A stretch of DNA of 43,318 bases, from the NCBI GenBank assembly GCA_021777225.1, contig JAJYDQ010000034.1, positions 1 through 43,318 on the forward strand, given 5' to 3'. Shown here in pieces: positions 8,533 through 18,521 of the stretch; position 1 is the stretch's first letter; every line of letters begins with the position of its first letter. The notes under the pieces were generated by a model that ran no database searches, was not told the DNA's origin, and was given only the letters and a program-made list of their open reading frames with translations. The DNA comes from Deltaproteobacteria bacterium. Lineage in GTDB: Bacteria; Desulfobacterota; Desulfomonilia; Desulfomonilales; Desulfomonilaceae. A program made the translations under genes and the position numbers.

Positions 8533-9387
8533 ATGGAGATCAAAAGAATTGGCGTAATAGGCGCAGGGCTTATGGGCGGTGGCATTGCTCAAGTAGCGGC
8601 TCAGAGCGGCTTCCAGGTAAATCTTATGGATGTCGAAGAGAGATTCATCGCCAAAGGCATTGCTACGATCGAAAAGAACCTCAAACGTCAGGTGGACAAA
8701 GGCTCTCTCCAGGCTGATGAATCCGCCGCTATTCGGGGTCGTATTACCACTTGCCTCAACTTGGCTGAATTGGCGCAAAATGTGGACATGACGATTGAAG
8801 CAGTTATAGAGAACCTTGACCTGAAAAAAAAGGTTTACAAGGAACTCGATTCTCTGGCCGCCCCTAATGTTATCTTCGCATCAAACACCTCAGCGTTGAG
8901 CATAACAGAGATGGCAGGCGCCACAAACAGACAGGACAAATTTATAGGCATGCATTTCTTTAATCCTGTTCCAGTAATGAAACTAGTGGAACTTATACGA
9001 GGTTACGGGACGTCGAATGAGACAGTCAAAATCACAAAGGACGTCGCAAATAGAATGGGGAAAACCGCCATTGAGGTCCTGGAAGCCCCTGGATTCGTGG
9101 TTAACAGGATCCTTGTTCCGATGGTTATCGAAGCGATTTGTGTGCTTCAGGAAGGGCTGGCCAGCGCTGCTGAAATTGACGAGGGCATGAAGCTTGGAGC
9201 CAACCATCCGATGGGACCCTTGGCGCTTGCTGATCTGGTTGGTTTGGATACCTTACTCAGTGTTCAGCAACATCTTTATGAAGAATTCGGAGACCCGAAA
9301 TACAGGCCACCGGTATTGCTAAAGAAAATGGTAAGAGCAGGCCGACTGGGTAGAAAAAGCGGCAAGGGATTTTACGATTATTCATAA
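8533..9387 (+). CDS. 3-hydroxyacyl-CoA (3-hydroxybutyryl-CoA) dehydrogenase
   Basis: NAD-dependent oxidation of 3-hydroxyacyl-CoA to 3-ketoacyl-CoA in beta-oxidation, or the reverse reduction in butyrate formation. The Rossmann motif [11 protein letters not shown] is at residues 10-20. The catalytic set is visible: S120 in [10 protein letters not shown]141 in [15 protein letters not shown] and N191 in FVVNRIL. The C-terminal domain carries [15 protein letters not shown] and ends [11 protein letters not shown], as in Hbd/PaaH proteins. The length of 284 residues is exactly that of the family. It is preceded by AGAAGGGAGA and followed at 28 bases by an acyl-CoA dehydrogenase, so the two form a small operon divergent from the thiolase. 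Confidence 0.93.
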
Positions 9388-9415
9388 TTGAGAGAAGTCA
9401 TTTTTGGAGGACGAC

Positions 9416-10585
9416 ATGGAAGAAATGGATCGCTTCGGACTTACCGAAGAAGAACAGATGCTTCAGGACATGGTACGGCGGCTGGCTAAAGAGAAAGTGG
9501 CTCCTACCGCCGAAGAACGAGATAAAAAGGGCGATTATCCACGTGACATGCTGGAACTCATGAAAGAAAACGGGCTTATGGGTGTAGACTTTCCGGAAGC
9601 TTACGGTGGAATGGAAGCAGGGATGCTGGCCCACTGTATAGTCGTCGAAGAACTTGCGAAGGCAGACGCTTCGGTGGCGCTAATCCCATCAGTCCAGGAG
9701 CTTGGTAGTCTTCCGATCATTCTTGCCGGAAATCACGAACAAAAGGAAAAATATCTCACTCCTCTTTCGTCTGGGGAGACAACTGCCGCGTTTGGCCTTA
9801 CCGAGTCCAAGGGAGGTTCCGATGTGGCGGCTCTGAAAACACGCGCAGTTAAAAAAGGTGATAAATACATCCTAAATGGCTCAAAAATGTGGATCACCAA
9901 TGGTGGTATCGCTGACACATTCAGCGTCTACGCTATCACAGACCCCGATGTGCCTTCTTACAAAGGGGCTAGTGTTTTTATCGTTGAGAAAAGCTGGCCC
10001 GGGTTCTCGATTGGAAAGAAAGAAAGCAAACTGGGGATCCGCTCTTCAGACACCAGAGAACTGGTCTTTGAAGATGTCGAAGTCCCCGTCGAAAACCTCT
10101 TGGGTGAGGAAGGTATGGGTTTCCATATCATGATGAAAACCCTCGACTTCAGCCGGCCTTCGGTAGCCGCTCAGGCGTTGGGTATAGCCACGGGCGCTTT
10201 TGAATACGCAACTCAATACGCCAAAGAACGGGTGGCGTTCGGCAAACCTATCATCAAGCATCAAGCTATCGCTTTCAAACTCGCCGATATGGCTATGAAA
10301 ACTACGGCAGCGAGAATGCTCCTCTGGAAAACCTGTTCCCTGTTGGACAAGGTTTCTAAAGACCTGTCCAAGATTCCACCAGAAACAATCAGACACTCAT
10401 CCATGTCAAAGGCCTTTTGCTCCGATGTGGCCATGTGGACCACAGTGGAAGCCGTTCAAGTCCTTGGCGGTTTTGGATACAGCACCGAATATCCTGTTGA
10501 GCGTATGATGCGAGACGCCAAGATTACTCAAATCTATGAGGGCACAAACGAAATTCAGCGCCTGGTTATATCCGGCACTCTTTAA
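9416..10585 (+). CDS. acyl-CoA dehydrogenase
   Basis: FAD-dependent alpha,beta-desaturation of an acyl-CoA, the first oxidative step of beta-oxidation, with electrons passed to ETF. Visible landmarks are AAFGLTESKGGSDV (flavin/substrate region), KMWITNGGIAD, KLGIRSSDTREL and the C-terminal QIYEGTNEIQR, whose Glu is the usual catalytic base of short- and medium-chain members. The start at 9416 is supported by TGGAGG at a good distance; the frame extends back to a TTG at 9404 that would overlap this site. The length is about 389 residues. It is paired with the dehydrogenase at 8533. ETF genes are not in the window. Confidence 0.94.
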   Translation: MEEMDRFGLTEEEQMLQDMVRRLAKEKVAPTAEERDKKGDYPRDMLELMKENGLMGVDFPEAYGGMEAGMLAHCIVVEELAKADASVALIPSVQELGSLPIILAGNHEQKEKYLTPLSSGETTAAFGLTESKGGSDVAALKTRAVKKGDKYILNGSKMWITNGGIADTFSVYAITDPDVPSYKGASVFIVEKSWPGFSIGKKESKLGIRSSDTRELVFEDVEVPVENLLGEEGMGFHIMMKTLDFSRPSVAAQALGIATGAFEYATQYAKERVAFGKPIIKHQAIAFKLADMAMKTTAARMLLWKTCSLLDKVSKDLSKIPPETIRHSSMSKAFCSDVAMWTTVEAVQVLGGFGYSTEYPVERMMRDAKITQIYEGTNEIQRLVISGTL

Positions 10586-10868: not shown

Positions 10869-13511
10869 TCAGTAAAAGAAGGATTGAATGCCGTGAAGGA
10901 GGAATGCGGTTAAGATTAAAGCTACCACAAGATGTGGCAAAACCTCCATCAATCTCCTGATTGTCAGTTTGGGGGTTTTCCCTCTGCTTAATCTATAGCT
11001 GATAACAATTGCGCCTAGAGCGCCTATGAAAACTAGTACCTGTTGAGCAAACAACGTCCATGAAGGGGGAACTGTTATCACCAATCGTTCAAAAATACTG
11101 AAATGAAATGTCTGCCATAAGACAATGGGGAAATAGACACCCATATTTATTAGATAATACAAATGGTAGGCCATGAATCCTGTCATGACTAAGGGAAGTA
11201 AAGCAAGTCCATAACGCGCGAAATTTTCTTTTGTAGTTTCTCCTGAAATTTGGGAAGAGACGGTGGCGGCGACAAGGGTAAGCGCATTGGCGCAAAGAAT
11301 AGCCAACGTGAAAAAAAACGTGAAAACAACTATGTCCGGCCAATCAAAAAACAAATGATAAAAGTGATCATATATAGTACCGGTTTCGAGCAATTCGCTC
11401 ATCAGACCGCCATACATGCTTATGACTAGAAATGAGGTAACGGCGCCTACCTGACGCATTTCCCAGATTTCTCGACCTGGTATTCGAAGATTAAGGTTCA
11501 TGGCTCCATGTGGGCAATTCTTGACGCAATTTCCACAGAGTTTGCAAAAACGGTTGCTTCTCAAGGAAGGGGCCATTTGTCCGAAAGGGCACCCTTCATG
11601 GTTCTGAGTTCCGACGAAACACTCGTTGGAGGAACACTGGCTCGCACATACGTTTCGATCAGCTCTGAGTTCAAATGGTGAAACCTTGGCCAGGACTCCC
11701 ATCATTCCCCCCAGAGGACACAGGTATCTGCACCATGATTGCCGTTCAAAAACAATAGAAAAAAATACTGAGAAAAGCGTAATGCTAATTAACAAAATGC
11801 CTGTATTGAAAGGGGAAGATCGAATATCGGTAGCAATTTCCAGCCAAATGATGAACATCGCTGACGTCGCGATGATCAGGTCACTTTTTTGTTTAAGAAA
11901 AGCAGGAAAAGGAATGTCGAAAGAGATCAATTTCTTAGCCAGATGACCTATGGCCCCCATGGGACACAACGAACACCAGAATCTGGCCCAGATAAAAGCC
12001 CCAAATATCATGGTAGGCCAGCCGATGGCCCAACTGAATAACGCTCCTACATTAGATGACGGATTCACGGGGCCAAGGAATAACAGTACGAGAAGTATAA
12101 AAAAGAATGGGGCTGCGGCGCTCTGAAATATAGCCGGAAATAGAGGACTTCTTACGGCTCGCAATATTGTAGGTGAACTTAATAAATTTATCTTGCCATC
12201 AGCTTCAATACGTCTGAGGTCAAAATATATATCTTGGGGTCTCAGAATCCCATCGGCGGAAAGTAGTACCGCTCTTTTAAGAGTAGTCGCAAGCTCTCTG
12301 TCGTTACCAGGCCAGGAATAGCCTACCAGGGTCTTAATGGTCTCCTTCGGTAGCTTGGTGATTTCTTTGTGAAGTTCCTGGCCATATTTGCTGACATAAT
12401 GCTGGACAAGTGTCGGGATTTCTTTCCTTCGTTGGCGTAAAGGCGGCACATGTATAGAATGTTCGAGCATCCAATGAAGCAATGGATGTTTGTCGGCCGA
12501 AATTTCCGAAGCGTCCAGATTCGTCGTTCCAATTATACGAGTGTCGCAGTTTTGATAACCAACTGCGCCAACTTTCTTAAATTTTCCATTTTTGAGCGTG
12601 AACAATAGCCTGTTCTGCATGAGCAGCGTCAGATGTTCCATTCCACGAACAAGCAGGGTTCCTTCTTCTGTAAGTTCCAGATATCCCGGTGTTTCAATTC
12701 TGGTTTGTCCTTTGCCTCGCGTTTCTGAACCGAAGAAAAGCCTCATTTGTTGTTCAGTTGGATCTGCCGCATCTTCAGGAAGTTCGCAATAGTTAAGGGC
12801 TTTATCCTCGGCAGTCATAGGCCGCAATAAATCCAGAAAGAGGAAAACTCTTTGGTGGTGCGGGGATCGCTTGTACAGGGCATGAGCAAGAAATTCCTTT
12901 CCCACTCCGGTTTCACCGGTAATCAGGACCGGCCAAACAGATCCAGCCAACTCCTCTAGCTGACGCCCCACGCGTTTCCTGACTGTTTCTCCTACAAAAT
13001 AGTCGGGAAAGAGATGGTCTTCACGACTGATAATATTTTGAAGAGCCCTCTTTTTACGGGCGTTTTTGTAGACATTCTGGTCAAGCCTGATGACTTTACG
13101 GGCAAGGTTCTTCAACACTGAGATCATGAAATCAGGATTGGATTTTAAAACACTTTCAAAGCTGGTAGCGGGGATTTCAAGGATGGTGGAGTTTTCTTCC
13201 GCGATCACTTCTGAGTTGGTGGGGGTTGGGATACCAGTTAGAAAGCTGATTTCACCTACAATGTCACCGGTGGAAAGCCTGTCGACAGGTATATCAGGAC
13301 CACCTTGCTCGTGGACAAGAATCTGGGCTTTGCCGGAAACCAAGAAACGGACATTGTCGCCTAAATCCCCCGCTGAAACTATACAATCCCCTTTAGCAAA
13401 GTCGCGAAGGACTCCCATCTCCCATAGCGCTGAGCGAACTGGGTCTGAATATTCCAGAAACGGGTCTTTAAGACCTCTGGAGGTTAAGTTTTCAGCTATT
13501 GATTGCTGCAT
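10869..13511 (-). CDS. cNMP-binding / degenerate NtrC-type AAA+ / membrane polyferredoxin fusion protein
   Basis: An 880-residue three-part protein. Residues about 25-140 form a cyclic-nucleotide-binding (CRP-like) domain, with GDIVGEISFLTG as the ligand-loop region. Residues about 165-435 form a sigma-54-activator-like AAA+ domain with Walker A GETGVGKE (199-206) and an arginine-rich LRQRRKEIP. It lacks the GAFTGA loop, and its Walker B equivalent (282-294, ending LLVRGMEHL) lacks the Asp-Glu pair. From about 455 to the end it is a multi-span NapH/NosR/FixG-like polyferredoxin, with CxxCP at 513-517, CxxxCP at 594-599, C622/C626/C631/C641 and C656/C659/C662/C666. There is no DNA-binding HTH. 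It lies 104 bases after a sigma-54 response regulator in the same direction. A membrane redox sensor or electron-transfer protein with built-in ligand control is inferred; its function is unknown. Confidence 0.85.
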   Translation of the reverse strand: MQQSIAENLTSRGLKDPFLEYSDPVRSALWEMGVLRDFAKGDCIVSAGDLGDNVRFLVSGKAQILVHEQGGPDIPVDRLSTGDIVGEISFLTGIPTPTNSEVIAEENSTILEIPATSFESVLKSNPDFMISVLKNLARKVIRLDQNVYKNARKKRALQNIISREDHLFPDYFVGETVRKRVGRQLEELAGSVWPVLITGETGVGKEFLAHALYKRSPHHQRVFLFLDLLRPMTAEDKALNYCELPEDAADPTEQQMRLFFGSETRGKGQTRIETPGYLELTEEGTLLVRGMEHLTLLMQNRLLFTLKNGKFKKVGAVGYQNCDTRIIGTTNLDASEISADKHPLLHWMLEHSIHVPPLRQRRKEIPTLVQHYVSKYGQELHKEITKLPKETIKTLVGYSWPGNDRELATTLKRAVLLSADGILRPQDIYFDLRRIEADGKINLLSSPTILRAVRSPLFPAIFQSAAAPFFFILLVLLFLGPVNPSSNVGALFSWAIGWPTMIFGAFIWARFWCSLCPMGAIGHLAKKLISFDIPFPAFLKQKSDLIIATSAMFIIWLEIATDIRSSPFNTGILLISITLFSVFFSIVFERQSWCRYLCPLGGMMGVLAKVSPFELRADRNVCASQCSSNECFVGTQNHEGCPFGQMAPSLRSNRFCKLCGNCVKNCPHGAMNLNLRIPGREIWEMRQVGAVTSFLVISMYGGLMSELLETGTIYDHFYHLFFDWPDIVVFTFFFTLAILCANALTLVAATVSSQISGETTKENFARYGLALLPLVMTGFMAYHLYYLINMGVYFPIVLWQTFHFSIFERLVITVPPSWTLFAQQVLVFIGALGAIVISYRLSRGKTPKLTIRRLMEVLPHLVVALILTAFLLHGIQSFFY

Positions 13512-13615: not shown

Positions 13616-15043
13616 TCATCCTCGTTTTACAGTCGTTTCAATTTTGATACCGTACTTTTCTATTTTGGCAAGTAAGGTTGGTCTTGAAAGTCCCAGCAAT
13701 TTGGCTGCATGAGACCGGTTCCCGGAGGTTAAGGATAAGGCTTCTGTCAAAAGTATCCGTGAGAATTCATCAACCATGGAGTTAAAAACAGTGTTCCCTC
13801 CTCGATTGAGTCCACCCCTTACCCATTCCTGAATAGAATCCGGCTGAAGTTGTTCCGATGTTTCCCCAGTACCCGTTTCTATCATTATCGCTTGGGATAT
13901 TTCCTCAGAACTTATAGGGGCCCCTCGACTAAATATCAGTGCTTTTTGAATCGTGTTGGCCAGTTCTCTCACATTACCGGGCCATGAATAGGCTTCCAGG
14001 GCGGCCTTGGCCTCCTCTGAAATTCCAGGACAATTAACCCCCATTTCAAGAGAAAACCTTTTCAGGAAAGCGTCAGCAAGTATTGCAGTATCACCTGTTC
14101 TATCACGTAAGGGTGGGAGAAACAAGGTAACAACCTTGAGTCTGTAATACAGATCGTCACGGAAACGGCCTTCTGTCAAAGCGGATTCAAGGTCCCGGTT
14201 AGTGGCCGCTATAACCCTAACATCAACGGGAATCGGAGAACGGCCTCCCAAGCGCTCTATACTCTTTTCCTGGAGGAGTCTCAGAATCTTTGCCTGTATA
14301 CTAAACGGCATATCCCCTATTTCATCGAGGAATACCGTCCCTCCGTCAGCCTGTTCAATTTTGCCGATCCTTCTGTTTGCCGCCCCGGTGAAAGCTCCCT
14401 TTTCATAACCGAATAATTCACTCTCTAAGAGCGTTTCAGGGATGGCTACACAGTTTATGACGAGAAAAGGCTTGTTGGAGCGATCACTGTGTTGATAAAG
14501 CGCCCGGGCCACGAGTTCTTTTCCTGTGCCGGATTCGCCTCGGATCAGGATTGTGGCTGCTGTAGACGCTGCCCGGCCTATTTGCTTGTAAACCTCCTGC
14601 ATTGACTTGCTGCGTCCGAAGATTACTTCTGCGGAATCTCCATCAGAAGCTGGATCGATTTCCACTCTCGAACGCATAAACCTCGAGGCTTCAAGGGCTT
14701 TGTCAATATTCGACAGCATCTCGGGTATGTCGAAGGGCTTGAGCAAATAATCAAAGGCCCCTAGTTTGGTAGCTTCAATCGCTGTGTCAGTCGTGCCATA
14801 GGCCGTCATGATTATGACGGGCAACTTGGAATCCATCTCGTGCATGGCCGTGAACGTTTCAAGACCGTCCATACCCGGTAACCGGACATCCATTACCACG
14901 ACATCAGGAGGATCTATCCCGACGATTTCCAGACCACCCTCGCCAGTCGCAGACATCTGCACCTTGTGCCCTTCCGCCGACAGTATCTTCTCAAAACTCA
15001 AGCGTAACTGTGCGTCATCATCGACTATGAGTATTTTGCCCAC
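13616..15043 (-). CDS. NtrC-family sigma-54-dependent response regulator
   Basis: Transcriptional activator of sigma-54 promoters, switched on by phosphorylation. Receiver domain at residues 1-120, with acidic residues D8-D10 and the phospho-acceptor D52 in VVVMDVRLPGMDG. The AAA+ domain has Walker A GESGTGKE, the sigma-54 contact loop GAFTGA and Walker B GGTVFLDEIGDM, all intact. A Fis-type helix-turn-helix occupies the C-terminus (NRSHAAKLLGLSRPTLLAKI). The GTG start has GGAG 8 bases upstream and lies inside the end of the kinase gene, with 19 bases overlapping, so the two are translationally coupled. The 475-residue length is usual. Its target promoters are unknown; no clear -24/-12 element was seen before the fusion gene at 13511. 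Confidence 0.94.
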   Translation of the reverse strand: MGKILIVDDDAQLRLSFEKILSAEGHKVQMSATGEGGLEIVGIDPPDVVVMDVRLPGMDGLETFTAMHEMDSKLPVIIMTAYGTTDTAIEATKLGAFDYLLKPFDIPEMLSNIDKALEASRFMRSRVEIDPASDGDSAEVIFGRSKSMQEVYKQIGRAASTAATILIRGESGTGKELVARALYQHSDRSNKPFLVINCVAIPETLLESELFGYEKGAFTGAANRRIGKIEQADGGTVFLDEIGDMPFSIQAKILRLLQEKSIERLGGRSPIPVDVRVIAATNRDLESALTEGRFRDDLYYRLKVVTLFLPPLRDRTGDTAILADAFLKRFSLEMGVNCPGISEEAKAALEAYSWPGNVRELANTIQKALIFSRGAPISSEEISQAIMIETGTGETSEQLQPDSIQEWVRGGLNRGGNTVFNSMVDEFSRILLTEALSLTSGNRSHAAKLLGLSRPTLLAKIEKYGIKIETTVKRG

Positions 15044-16512
15044 GACACGTCTCCAGATAAAGGAATCTTGATTCGGAAAGTAGCCCCTTTGCCTTCAATT
15101 GATTCCAGTTCAAGCCAGCCACCATGTTCTTCAACAATTCGTTGAGCAATACTCAACCCCAACCCTGTCCCTTCTTCTTTTGTACTGAAAAAAGGCTGAA
15201 ACAGTTTTTCCTGTATTGATTGCGCGACACCCGGCCCGTTATCGCTCATCTCGATAATCATGACAGGGCCTTCCTGCTCCAGAATTTGCAGGGTCTCCCG
15301 GATGACAACATGTCCTCCATTGACCATTGCGTCGCAGGCATTGACCATTAGATTGACGAGTGCTTCTTTGAACTGATCAGGATCAGCCTGGATTTCCGGT
15401 AGTCGTTTTTCGCGAATCAGATCTACCTTTACATCGTAGGACTCTAGTCTATGTTTGAGCAGTTGCAACGCCATATCCACCGAATCAGACGGACTGATTT
15501 TCTGCATTTTTAACTTTGGCGGTCTTGAGAATTCCAGAAAATTCCCAACAATTGTGTCAATATGCCTAATCTCCTCTGATATTACTTCAAAATCTTCCTT
15601 TTGGCTGGTAGAAAGGGCCAATGTGCGTTCCATGGAAAACAGCCTCATTTTAACAGATGTTAGTGGGTTCCTGACACTATGGGCAACTCCGGCCGCCAGT
15701 TTTCCCACAAGGGCCAACTTTTCCGCTTGTTGCAGATGTTCCTGACTCAACTCCAGTTTTGATCGAGTCTGGTCAACATCCTGAATTAGATTTTCAAAGC
15801 GGCGGCTTAAGGCCTTAACTTCGTCATTTTCAACACCGGAGGTCTTCTTTTCGTCAGCGTCCACAGCGAGGCGTCTAATCGGGCCGAGAATCTGGCTGAG
15901 CAATATGTAAGCAAGAATAAATCCCAGAAACAAAACTAGGACCAACCCTCCTATGGCCATAGAGTTAATTAGCACCGCCCTATCCCTTATCTTTTCCTGG
16001 GCTTCAGTGATCCTGTCCACATAGACAGCATCGAACTTTTTACATAGATCGATTATTTCAAAAAACTGATTGCGAGCGGTTTTGTGAAGATCAAATCCTT
16101 GATCGACTTTGCCCTGTTTGTAAAGATTCACGACCGAATCTCGCAAAGAACCATATCGAACATAGTGGGAGTCGATTTCGTTGAGTATCTCACGTTCCTT
16201 CTGGGTTTCGGACAATTGTCCGGCCAATTTCAGCCACTTTTCAAAAGAAGCGTCATGTTTTTCAAGCTCTTCGAGCCAAATTGGGTCCCTGTCCTGAAAA
16301 TAGTACGTAACGTAGCCCTTTTGCATGACGAGAGCGTTTTCCAATTCCTGGGAGGCTTGAATTGCCTGAAGATCTGTCGCCAGAAACCTGTTCATATACC
16401 CATCAACAATATAGGTGTGCGAAATGGAGAGGATCGCTCCGGCGATTGTTATCAGCATCAATGCCCCAAGAATCAAAAGAATTCGCGTTTGCAAGCTCAC
16501 TCTATGAAACAT
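15025..16512 (-). CDS. membrane sensor histidine kinase with four-helix periplasmic sensor and HAMP
   Basis: Cognate sensor for the response regulator at 13616. The chain has an N-terminal membrane span, a roughly 150-residue helical extracytoplasmic region resembling four-helix-bundle sensors, a second span, a HAMP linker, an H-box AAGVAHSVRNPLTS and an ATPase domain with NACDAM, DNGPGV and GTGLGLSIA. The phospho-accepting His is residue 278 counted from the ATG at 16512. That start puts the first membrane span close to the N-terminus and has GAGG 12 bases upstream. An in-frame TTG at 16635, with AGGT upstream, would add 41 unconserved residues and cannot be excluded. The stimulus is unknown. 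Confidence 0.9.
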   Translation of the reverse strand: MFHRVSLQTRILLILGALMLITIAGAILSISHTYIVDGYMNRFLATDLQAIQASQELENALVMQKGYVTYYFQDRDPIWLEELEKHDASFEKWLKLAGQLSETQKEREILNEIDSHYVRYGSLRDSVVNLYKQGKVDQGFDLHKTARNQFFEIIDLCKKFDAVYVDRITEAQEKIRDRAVLINSMAIGGLVLVLFLGFILAYILLSQILGPIRRLAVDADEKKTSGVENDEVKALSRRFENLIQDVDQTRSKLELSQEHLQQAEKLALVGKLAAGVAHSVRNPLTSVKMRLFSMERTLALSTSQKEDFEVISEEIRHIDTIVGNFLEFSRPPKLKMQKISPSDSVDMALQLLKHRLESYDVKVDLIREKRLPEIQADPDQFKEALVNLMVNACDAMVNGGHVVIRETLQILEQEGPVMIIEMSDNGPGVAQSIQEKLFQPFFSTKEEGTGLGLSIAQRIVEEHGGWLELESIEGKGATFRIKIPLSGDVSWAKYS

Positions 16513-16854
16513 TTTCTGTAGTTTCCTCAACTTTGTACGGGGATGCGAATTTACCAACTCAACCCCATACTCAAGGTCTGGCCGAGAAGCCTCATGCGCA
16601 AACCCGAAAAACTTAAACGGATGTTGTAAATTCAATTAGTTACCTAATCACCTCTTCTACCATATCACCCAAAAGTCCTGGGAACAAGACAGCGGCTTAA
16701 ATCCTCAAACCTTGACATGAGGATTCATCGCGGTTAAAAGAGTTCCCTTCTTGAGAGTGTTCTAAAGATAGGAGCACAAACTCAGGAAATACTTTAACCT
16801 CGGAAAGGAAAATATCTTTCATGCGAGGCATTATTAAAACTAGATTGGAGATTT

Positions 16855-17466: not shown

Positions 17467-17522
17467 ATCGAACTTAGGGCAACTTGGCAGGTTATTGTAA
17501 ATTCTGAACAAGGAGGACATTG

Positions 17523-18521
17523 ATGGAACATATATATACTGAACTAGCGACTCGAATAGGTTTGGGGCAATCTGAAAGAATTGCCGGGCTATTCCAGTTT
17601 ATAGCTGATCCGCAGGAAGCTCAACTGCTTCTGGCATTACCTGGGACACCTCCTGATCTGGCAAAAACACTAAATTTAACGGAACCTGAAGTGTCCTCAA
17701 TATTACACAGTCTCTTTATAAAAGGCGTAGTATTTCCCTCTTCAAAGTCTGATCCGCCCAAATACAAGATGTGCAGGGACCTGGTCCAATTCCATGACGC
17801 GTCCATCTTGTGGCCGGAGGCTCCAAGAGAGTTCCTTGATGTGTGGCAGGAGTTCATGGAATATGAATGGCCGGAGATTGCAAAGAATTTCAACAAAATA
17901 TTCCCACGCCCATTTACCAGGGTTATTCCGGTCGGGGTAACTATTGAGGCCAAGACGCATGTTCTGGCCTTTGAAGACGTCAGAGAAATCATCGAAAAAG
18001 CTAACGTCATATCTGTAACAAAATGTACCTGCCGTTTAACTGCCCGCAAATGTGACCGTACTTTGGAGGCCTGTCTCCAGATAAACCGTGGCGCAGAATA
18101 CAATCTAGCCCGCGGAACCGGGCGGCGACTCACAAAAGAAGAGGCGCTTGAGGTTGTTCGCAAAGCGGAAGAAGACGGTTTGATCCACGTTGTAATGAAC
18201 AAACAGAACGTTGACCAGTTTATCTGTAACTGCTGCCCATGTTGCTGTCAGACAATGCCTATACTCATAAAGCACAACATCAGCGTAATAGAACCAAGCA
18301 GGTTTGCCGCATGCGTTGCCCAGGATCTATGCTCGGCCTGCGGCACATGTCTTGACCGATGTTACTTTGGAGCAATAGTGGCAGCGGAAGATGGGACCGC
18401 CACGGTCAATACCGAGAAATGCATGGGATGTGGACTGTGTCAGGTCACCTGTCCTACAGGCGCCATTAGTATGAAGGAAACCAGATCGACAGATTTTGTC
18501 CCAGAAAAGCTATTCAACTAA
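17523..18521 (+). CDS. cysteine-rich 4Fe-4S protein with N-terminal winged-helix-like region
   Basis: Cytoplasmic ferredoxin-type protein of 332 residues. The N-terminal 70 or so residues (LAKTLNLTEPEVSSILHSLFIKG) look like a winged-helix domain. The middle has CTCR with C168, C170, C177 and C184, then a dense CNCCPCCC block (C235-C242). The C-terminus is a 2[4Fe-4S] ferredoxin with C270/C273/C276/C280 and C300/C303/C306/C310. The ATG at 17523 is chosen because AAGGAGG ends 6 bases upstream; a TTG one codon earlier is less well placed. Similar architectures occur widely in sulfate reducers and methanogens as ferredoxin-like proteins of unknown role. An oxidoreductase subunit or redox-responsive regulator is possible. 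The cluster motifs are certain; the function is not. Confidence 0.85.
   Translation: MEHIYTELATRIGLGQSERIAGLFQFIADPQEAQLLLALPGTPPDLAKTLNLTEPEVSSILHSLFIKGVVFPSSKSDPPKYKMCRDLVQFHDASILWPEAPREFLDVWQEFMEYEWPEIAKNFNKIFPRPFTRVIPVGVTIEAKTHVLAFEDVREIIEKANVISVTKCTCRLTARKCDRTLEACLQINRGAEYNLARGTGRRLTKEEALEVVRKAEEDGLIHVVMNKQNVDQFICNCCPCCCQTMPILIKHNISVIEPSRFAACVAQDLCSACGTCLDRCYFGAIVAAEDGTATVNTEKCMGCGLCQVTCPTGAISMKETRSTDFVPEKLFN

Follow-up and report, generated by a model that had tools for sequence, protein, structure and literature searches.

An 880-amino-acid (aa) protein encoded in the window, a 43,318-nucleotide stretch of a Deltaproteobacteria bacterium of the Desulfomonilaceae (contig JAJYDQ010000034.1, assembly GCA_021777225.1), carries an AAA+ domain of the sigma-54 activator type between a cyclic-nucleotide-binding-like (CNB) sensor domain and a membrane polyferredoxin. 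The AAA+ domain is a real conserved variant of the known bacterial enhancer-binding protein (bEBP) fold from which the residues for ATP hydrolysis and sigma-54 contact are missing. As judged from aligned relatives, this loss is a fixed trait of the fusion architecture and not a local accident. On balance, the domain probably serves as a fixed, non-hydrolysing pseudo-AAA+ relay or assembly module that links the cytosolic sensor to a membrane iron-sulfur (Fe-S) electron carrier.

The fusion protein was laid out as follows.

10869 to 13511, minus strand: fusion protein of CNB, pseudo-AAA+ and membrane polyferredoxin parts, 880 aa (open reading frame (ORF), Pfam, alignment of 26 family proteins).
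13137 to 13406, minus strand: CNB-like sensor domain, residues 36-125 (cNMP_binding PF00027, 4.4e-16).
13023 to 13136, minus strand: long predicted helix linking the CNB and AAA+ domains, residues 126-163 (AlphaFold2 model).
12204 to 12977, minus strand: degenerate sigma-54-type AAA+ domain and lid, residues 179-436 (PF00158, PF25601, AlphaFold2 model).
10872 to 12194, minus strand: NapH-like membrane polyferredoxin, residues 440-880 (two Fer4_5 matches in Pfam, invariant Cys, predicted helices).

The region singled out in an earlier note on this DNA, 12192 to 13017, corresponds to residues 166-440 and one base of residue 165. Pfam analysis of the protein placed a Sigma54_activat match (PF00158; 67.1 bits, cut-off 20.2) at residues 179-338 and an AAA_lid_14 match (PF25601) at residues 359-436. 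The polyferredoxin comes after the lid, and no helix-turn-helix (HTH) family was found in the Pfam scan up to an E value of 1, as the earlier note had stated.

The motif positions of the AAA+ domain were then as follows.

12894 to 12917, minus strand: Walker A motif GETGVGKE, residues 199-206, intact (sequence and alignment; conservation rank 2 of 271 octamers).
12642 to 12647, minus strand: Walker B Asp-Glu columns, here Arg289-Gly290 (alignment of 63 fusions).
12702 to 12719, minus strand: GAFTGA columns (L1 loop) reading RGKGQT, residues 265-270 (alignment).
12471 to 12491, minus strand: arginine-finger region, residues 341-347, with columns Lys341 and Trp347 (alignment).
12297 to 12299, minus strand: sensor II Arg405, retained in the window's clade (alignment; Arg in 11 of 63 fusions).

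The earlier reading of Walker A as intact and of the Walker B position as lacking Asp-Glu was borne out; the latter reads GTLLVRGMEHL, with Arg289 in place of Asp and Gly290 in place of Glu. The claim that the GAFTGA loop is absent held for the motif but not for the loop, since L1 itself was not deleted and has its usual length. Further losses were seen beyond those noted earlier, at both arginine-finger columns and at the switch Asn, which is Asp here; the last is weak evidence because Asp occupies this position in 2 of 27 ordinary activators as well. The sensor I Asn and the sensor II Arg405 were retained in the window protein.

To compare these positions across the architecture, 63 AAA+-polyferredoxin fusions (38 from the window's family and 25 others; one phylum plus one Tectomicrobia) were aligned with 27 ordinary activators of the window's genome. 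The census leaves out L051 (disrupted) and L087/L032 and L176 (truncated), and takes in incomplete rows (e.g. L075, L083, L084) and the close pairs L119/L120, L121/L122 and L162/L163. The Walker B Glu and the Arg of arginine finger 2 were each found in none of the 63 fusions and in all 27 ordinary activators. GAFTGA was likewise present in no fusion, compared with 22 of the 27 activators, the other five of which read GSFTGA, GSYTGA, GSFTGS, GAFTGV and VALTGS. A Walker B Asp was seen in a single fusion (L180) compared to 21 activators, the six remaining controls having Asn; in all 38 fusions of the window's family this column was Arg or Lys. The switch Asn was kept in 8/63 fusions (24/27 activators), the sensor I Asn in 16/63 (26/27) and the sensor II Arg in 11/63, all from the window's clade (27/27). 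At the finger 1 column, where the alignment is loose, Arg was found in 11 of the 38 family rows and Lys in the window protein. The Walker A Lys was present in 57 of the 63 fusions (36 of 38 within the window's family) and in every ordinary activator, and 12 of the 25 non-family fusions no longer had an intact Gly-Lys pair in this motif.

Since the Walker B Glu, GAFTGA and finger 2 were lost from all 63 fusions and no HTH was found, the sequence comparison strongly supports the earlier proposal that the domain neither activates sigma-54 nor hydrolyses ATP in the usual way. An active sigma-54 activator was ruled out by the missing GAFTGA motif, Walker B acids, arginine finger 2 and HTH, and a loss peculiar to the window's genome, or a sequencing error, by the 63 fusions. 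In distant fusions the GAFTGA columns read GAFTFS, GAFSFS, GAFAFS, GAIPSV and similar, remnants that indicate a sigma-54 activator as ancestor.

An AlphaFold2 model of the AAA+ domain (residues 160-437, built from 35 sequences) had a mean predicted local distance difference test (pLDDT) score of 82.7 and a predicted template modelling (pTM) score of 0.80. Its best structural match was NtrC1 (1ny5; Z 24.7, 251 residues, 3.0 Å); FlrC (6luf, Z 23.7), PspF (2c9c, 23.2) and VpsR (7v2b, 22.0) also were matched. Among the matches listed, Z values to bEBP chains were 17 to 25, and the best of these matches spanned about 220-250 residues. The model indicates that the NtrC1/PspF-type bEBP fold and its lid are retained. 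The strand at residues 285-289 ends at Arg289, in the place of the Walker B Asp, and no substitute catalytic residues were seen in the model from the strand positions and the fold match. With both an alignment and a structure model made, no equivalent GAFTGA or acidic Walker B residues were seen elsewhere in the domain; relocation of the catalytic residues within it was ruled out by the alignments and the model together.

The 4.04-Mb genome of the window (153 contigs) gave 31 PF00158 matches, 27 of them above 200 bits. The remaining four were the fusion protein, a paralogue of the same CNB-AAA+-polyferredoxin architecture (46 percent identity), one LpxC fusion and one ClpB-like protein (28.4 bits, by eye). 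When the genomes of 60 relatives were searched with the membrane domain, 18 matched, namely the window's own genome, 16 of 17 family-mates and one genome outside the family; up to four copies were present. The family-mate G016 had no match, and G007 had a short frame only. Of 395 genomes drawn from the phylum, 60 matched the membrane domain. Scanning of named genomes gave 71 loci, many of them in Desulfomonile, Desulfomonilaceae, Syntrophaceae or Deltaproteobacteria metagenome-assembled genomes (MAGs); L118 is from a Candidatus Tectomicrobia MAG, five of L119 to L126 are labelled Desulfobulbaceae, and many other rows were partial matches, such as Serratia AAA+ proteins. Many distant relatives of the membrane domain were open frames of about 450-500 aa that matched the membrane query only (L191 checked by Pfam). 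Genomes from many families within the phylum carry the fusion.

Quick trees were built for the AAA+ and membrane domains, with long rows for the LpxC fusion, L165, L178 and L180. In the AAA+ tree the 11 canonical rows formed one side of a fully supported branch (100), which is consistent with, and not proof of, a single origin of the fused AAA+ form. Two changes are needed on the tree for the fused rows, which the long LpxC row probably explains. The membrane-domain tree recovered the same main clades, a correspondence that favours a relay or assembly role; its deep forks were weak, and the position of L165 differed between the two trees.

Conservation was ranked over 271 octamers in 26 family proteins. 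The lid motif WPGN, which was invariant, came first, the P-loop second and the former tip of GAFTGA 234th; PPLR was nearly invariant. The ratio of nonsynonymous to synonymous substitution rates (dN/dS) was determined by the Nei-Gojobori method for eight pairs, five of them wholly or mostly saturated at synonymous sites. For the pairs window/L050, L052/L053 and L009/L078, respectively, dN/dS was 0.058, 0.042 and 0.108 in the AAA+ domain, 0.022, 0.037 and 0.034 in the membrane Fe-S part and 0.080, 0.129 and 0.117 in the CNB domain. On these codon comparisons the AAA+ domain is under purifying selection, and in each of the three pairs the constraint on it is weaker than that on the Fe-S core. In the L009/L078 pair (L009 6015-8741, L078 3528-6185) the CNB part had a synonymous divergence of 0.059 and the other parts about 0.4, as if the 5' part of these genes had recently been exchanged or converted.

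In the membrane part, 12 Cys residues (513, 516, 594, 598, 622, 626, 631, 641, 656, 659, 662 and 666) were invariant in alignments of 26 and of 37 proteins. About nine helices were predicted from the model and hydropathy; if the N-terminus is cytosolic, the Fe-S region faces the cytosol, the loop at 588-689 having 12 Lys plus Arg compared to 7 Asp plus Glu. As in NapH-type polyferredoxins, two Fer4_5 motifs lie in predicted membrane helices and are accompanied by further Fe-S cysteine clusters; on these sequence features the part belongs to a broad NapH/NosR-like group of membrane polyferredoxins. Unlike NapH, the protein scores 38.8 bits against an NCBIfam equivalog cut-off of 234 and carries the N-terminal CNB and pseudo-AAA+ domains. 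When the membrane part was compared by sequence with solved structures, three matches were returned (E 0.15-0.71). His783 (11163-11165) and His860 (10932-10934), both encoded on the minus strand and located in predicted membrane helices, were invariant in the 26 family proteins and form a possible haem or quinone site.

The sensor at the N-terminus differed between fusions, with a CNB domain in the window protein, CNB and two GAF domains in L164 and FHA and CNB in L167, as determined by Pfam. In bEBPs the AAA+ domain is controlled by the regulatory domain, in many cases by way of hexamerisation (PMC7175178). One membrane unit joined to different sensors, together with this mode of bEBP action, favours the relay reading.

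Under the relay reading, the protein would have arisen from a sigma-54 activator by exchange of its C-terminal DNA-binding part for a NapH-like membrane polyferredoxin. The AAA+ domain would no longer hydrolyse ATP or contact sigma-54, and the bEBP fold and lid would stay. The state of the N-terminal sensor (CNB, sometimes with GAF or FHA) would be relayed to the membrane Fe-S unit through the AAA+ domain, which would determine the assembly state or conformation of the polyferredoxin and hence its electron transfer; in the window's family, nucleotide would be held as a ligand or structural cofactor. We infer the oligomerisation, nucleotide binding, gating of electron transfer, signal and electron partners in this scheme. 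A more specific version, which we regard as doubtful, is that a non-hydrolysing pseudo-AAA+ ring gathers polyferredoxins into a conduit in which the sensor opens and closes electron transfer, with no role in transcription.

These features were compared with known systems. The fusion protein shares with NtrC/PspF-type bEBPs the fold, lid, Walker A motif and sensor-AAA+ order; it differs from them in the absence of the Walker B Asp-Glu, GAFTGA, finger 2 and HTH, and in having a membrane Fe-S unit as output. Ordinary bEBPs use the Walker B Glu, the switch Asn, the L1 loop and the arginine fingers to couple ATP hydrolysis to action on sigma-54 (PMC7175178, PMC4132715). VpsR and the NtrC proteins of Caulobacter and Rhodobacter also are bEBPs without GAFTGA, and VpsR was among the structural matches described above. 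Some GAFTGA-less bEBPs are reported (PMC10274813) to work at sigma-70 promoters without hydrolysing ATP; whereas those proteins control promoters, the fusion protein has a membrane redox domain in the place of an HTH. A word search of the open-licence literature, screened by title and start of abstract, found no description of the CNB/AAA+/polyferredoxin architecture, a weak form of absence.

A second protein of this kind was observed at L010 (6092-8224, plus strand; G000:C150:40091-42220), where a 710-aa ORF joins a receiver, a degenerate sigma-54 AAA+ domain without Walker B acids or GAFTGA, and LpxC. Among the 60 genomes searched, this fusion was near full length in 17 of the 18 family genomes (own included; not G017), and two distant genomes, G042 and G044, had a comparably long open frame containing both parts. 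Judged by sequence, this is another case of a pseudo-AAA+ bEBP domain whose output is not DNA binding but lipid A synthesis. The response regulator DVU2934 of Desulfovibrio vulgaris is reported to target lpxC (PMC3333781).

Several points weigh against the relay reading. The full-length model had a pLDDT of 78.8 and a pTM of 0.56, so the predicted arrangement of domains is unreliable. The sensor I Asn and sensor II Arg retained in the window's clade exceed what a pure scaffold would need. The CNB domain resembles CRP/FNR-type sensors in its PF00027 match, with NtcA as best solved match and CRP lower in the list. An R[STA]A motif and a phosphate-binding Glu are marks of CRP-type cyclic AMP receptors. 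Unlike CRP/FNR-type proteins, the fusion protein has no HTH match, and R[STA]A was found in none of the 38 family rows (two lack that stretch); it was seen in 4 of the 25 fusions outside the family, and the Glu column was Glu in 21 of the 38 family rows (Glu87 in the window protein). The linkage to a canonical NtrC gene described below allows a transcriptional role, and the oligomers, nucleotide binding, signal transfer and redox activity that the reading calls upon are ones that we infer.

The strongest rival, a tentative possibility, is that the domain is a nucleotide sensor: ATP or ADP would be bound unhydrolysed, perhaps without Mg2+, and the energy state of the cell reported to the polyferredoxin, with the conserved Arg or Lys that replaces the Walker B Asp perhaps facing the phosphates. 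The Walker A Lys and the basic residue at the Asp column within the family, the rank of the P-loop and the retention of sensors I and II in the window's clade all speak for it. In PspF, a milder Walker B change, Glu to Gln, gave poor hydrolysis, 30-fold tighter ATP binding and constitutive hexamers (PMC4132715), which indicates that the bEBP fold can form an assembly that binds nucleotide without hydrolysing it; the change here is more drastic. Since the P-loop is conserved, nucleotide binding is probably still selected in the window's family, and on this sequence pattern the AAA+ domain there probably still binds nucleotide. A natural test of the need for binding is provided by L052 and L053, from two same-genus genomes, in which Walker A reads GETGVGTE with Thr for Lys; the AAA+ domain remained strongly constrained between them, which, like the Gly-Lys pairs lost outside the family, argues against a sensor role. 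The earlier suggestion of a nucleotide-binding sensor or scaffold therefore divides: nucleotide binding is favoured in the window's family and disfavoured as a general role, and scaffold or relay would be the more general half.

The genes next to the fusion gene bear on a second rival.

13616 to 15043, minus strand: NtrC-type response regulator with GAFTGA, Walker B Asp-Glu and HTH_8 (sequence, Pfam).
15025 to 16635, minus strand: histidine kinase with four-helix-bundle sensor (Pfam HATPase_c, HisKA, 4HB_MCP_1).

The kinase and regulator genes overlap. It is unlikely, though conceivable, that the pseudo-AAA+ domain is incorporated into the hexamer of this upstream regulator, or binds to it, and so tethers or inhibits the regulator depending on the redox state of the membrane part. 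The order kinase, canonical NtrC, fusion was found in 10 of the 13 loci of the window's clade, adjoining in nine, and this clade alone kept the sensor II Arg; the pseudo-AAA+ domain also has the same fold as NtrC-type AAA+ domains. Neither gene was found in the available stretch of L051, L058 or L060, a 1.2-kb gap with another ORF separates the NtrC and fusion genes in L059, other clades of the family have different neighbours, and the arginine fingers, which work across subunit interfaces, are missing. The paralogue's clade adjoins a large polyketide/fatty-acid-synthase-like gene and a polyprenyl-synthase-like gene (annotated by eye). Adjacency may also mean only that NtrC controls the fusion gene, although no sigma-54 promoter-like match was found between the two genes in the window scan (34 matches in the window; shuffled sequences gave 37.35 on average). 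Overall, the scans for promoters (8 matches, 9.2 by chance) and for terminators (7, 7.1 by chance) did not exceed chance; on the strand of the gene, two sigma-70-like matches (13619-13592 and 13547-13518) fall within the gap or at its border, and the window scan found no terminator-like site there. The gap was clearly alike only in the window, L050 and L087 among six aligned.

Other observations were made at these loci. In L051 (9210-12063; G006:C101), from a same-genus MAG, the clade member was disrupted into pieces matching residues 1-421 and 390-880, split by an inverted stretch matching residues 90-126; the stretch examined was 20 kb, and the disruption may be an assembly fault (coverage 4.27, contig L095). 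A 139-156-aa protein, membrane-like by eye, adjoins the fusion gene in six loci (L118, L121, L122, L124, L125 and L126), and its L125 copy (9313-9774) had no Pfam match. Near the kinase/NtrC/fusion group, on the opposite strand, a 333-aa ORF (17520-18521, plus strand) has a cysteine-rich, ferredoxin-like C-terminus by eye.

That the domain is a decaying relic, its AAA+ function lost after fusion and the remainder drifting as a linker, is disfavoured and very improbable: damage to Walker A in several lineages and the very variable L1 tip would fit it, but the AAA+ dN/dS of 0.04-0.11 is similar to that of the CNB and C-terminal parts, the lid motifs are kept and the fusion occurs across many families of the phylum.

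The AAA+ domains of bEBPs are usually regarded as ATP-driven machines of transcription. Automatic annotation may name fusions of this kind sigma-54 regulators, which would mislead regulon reconstruction. If the relay reading is true, the transmission from sensor to AAA+ domain found in bEBPs would work without hydrolysis and would have been rewired to a non-transcriptional output.

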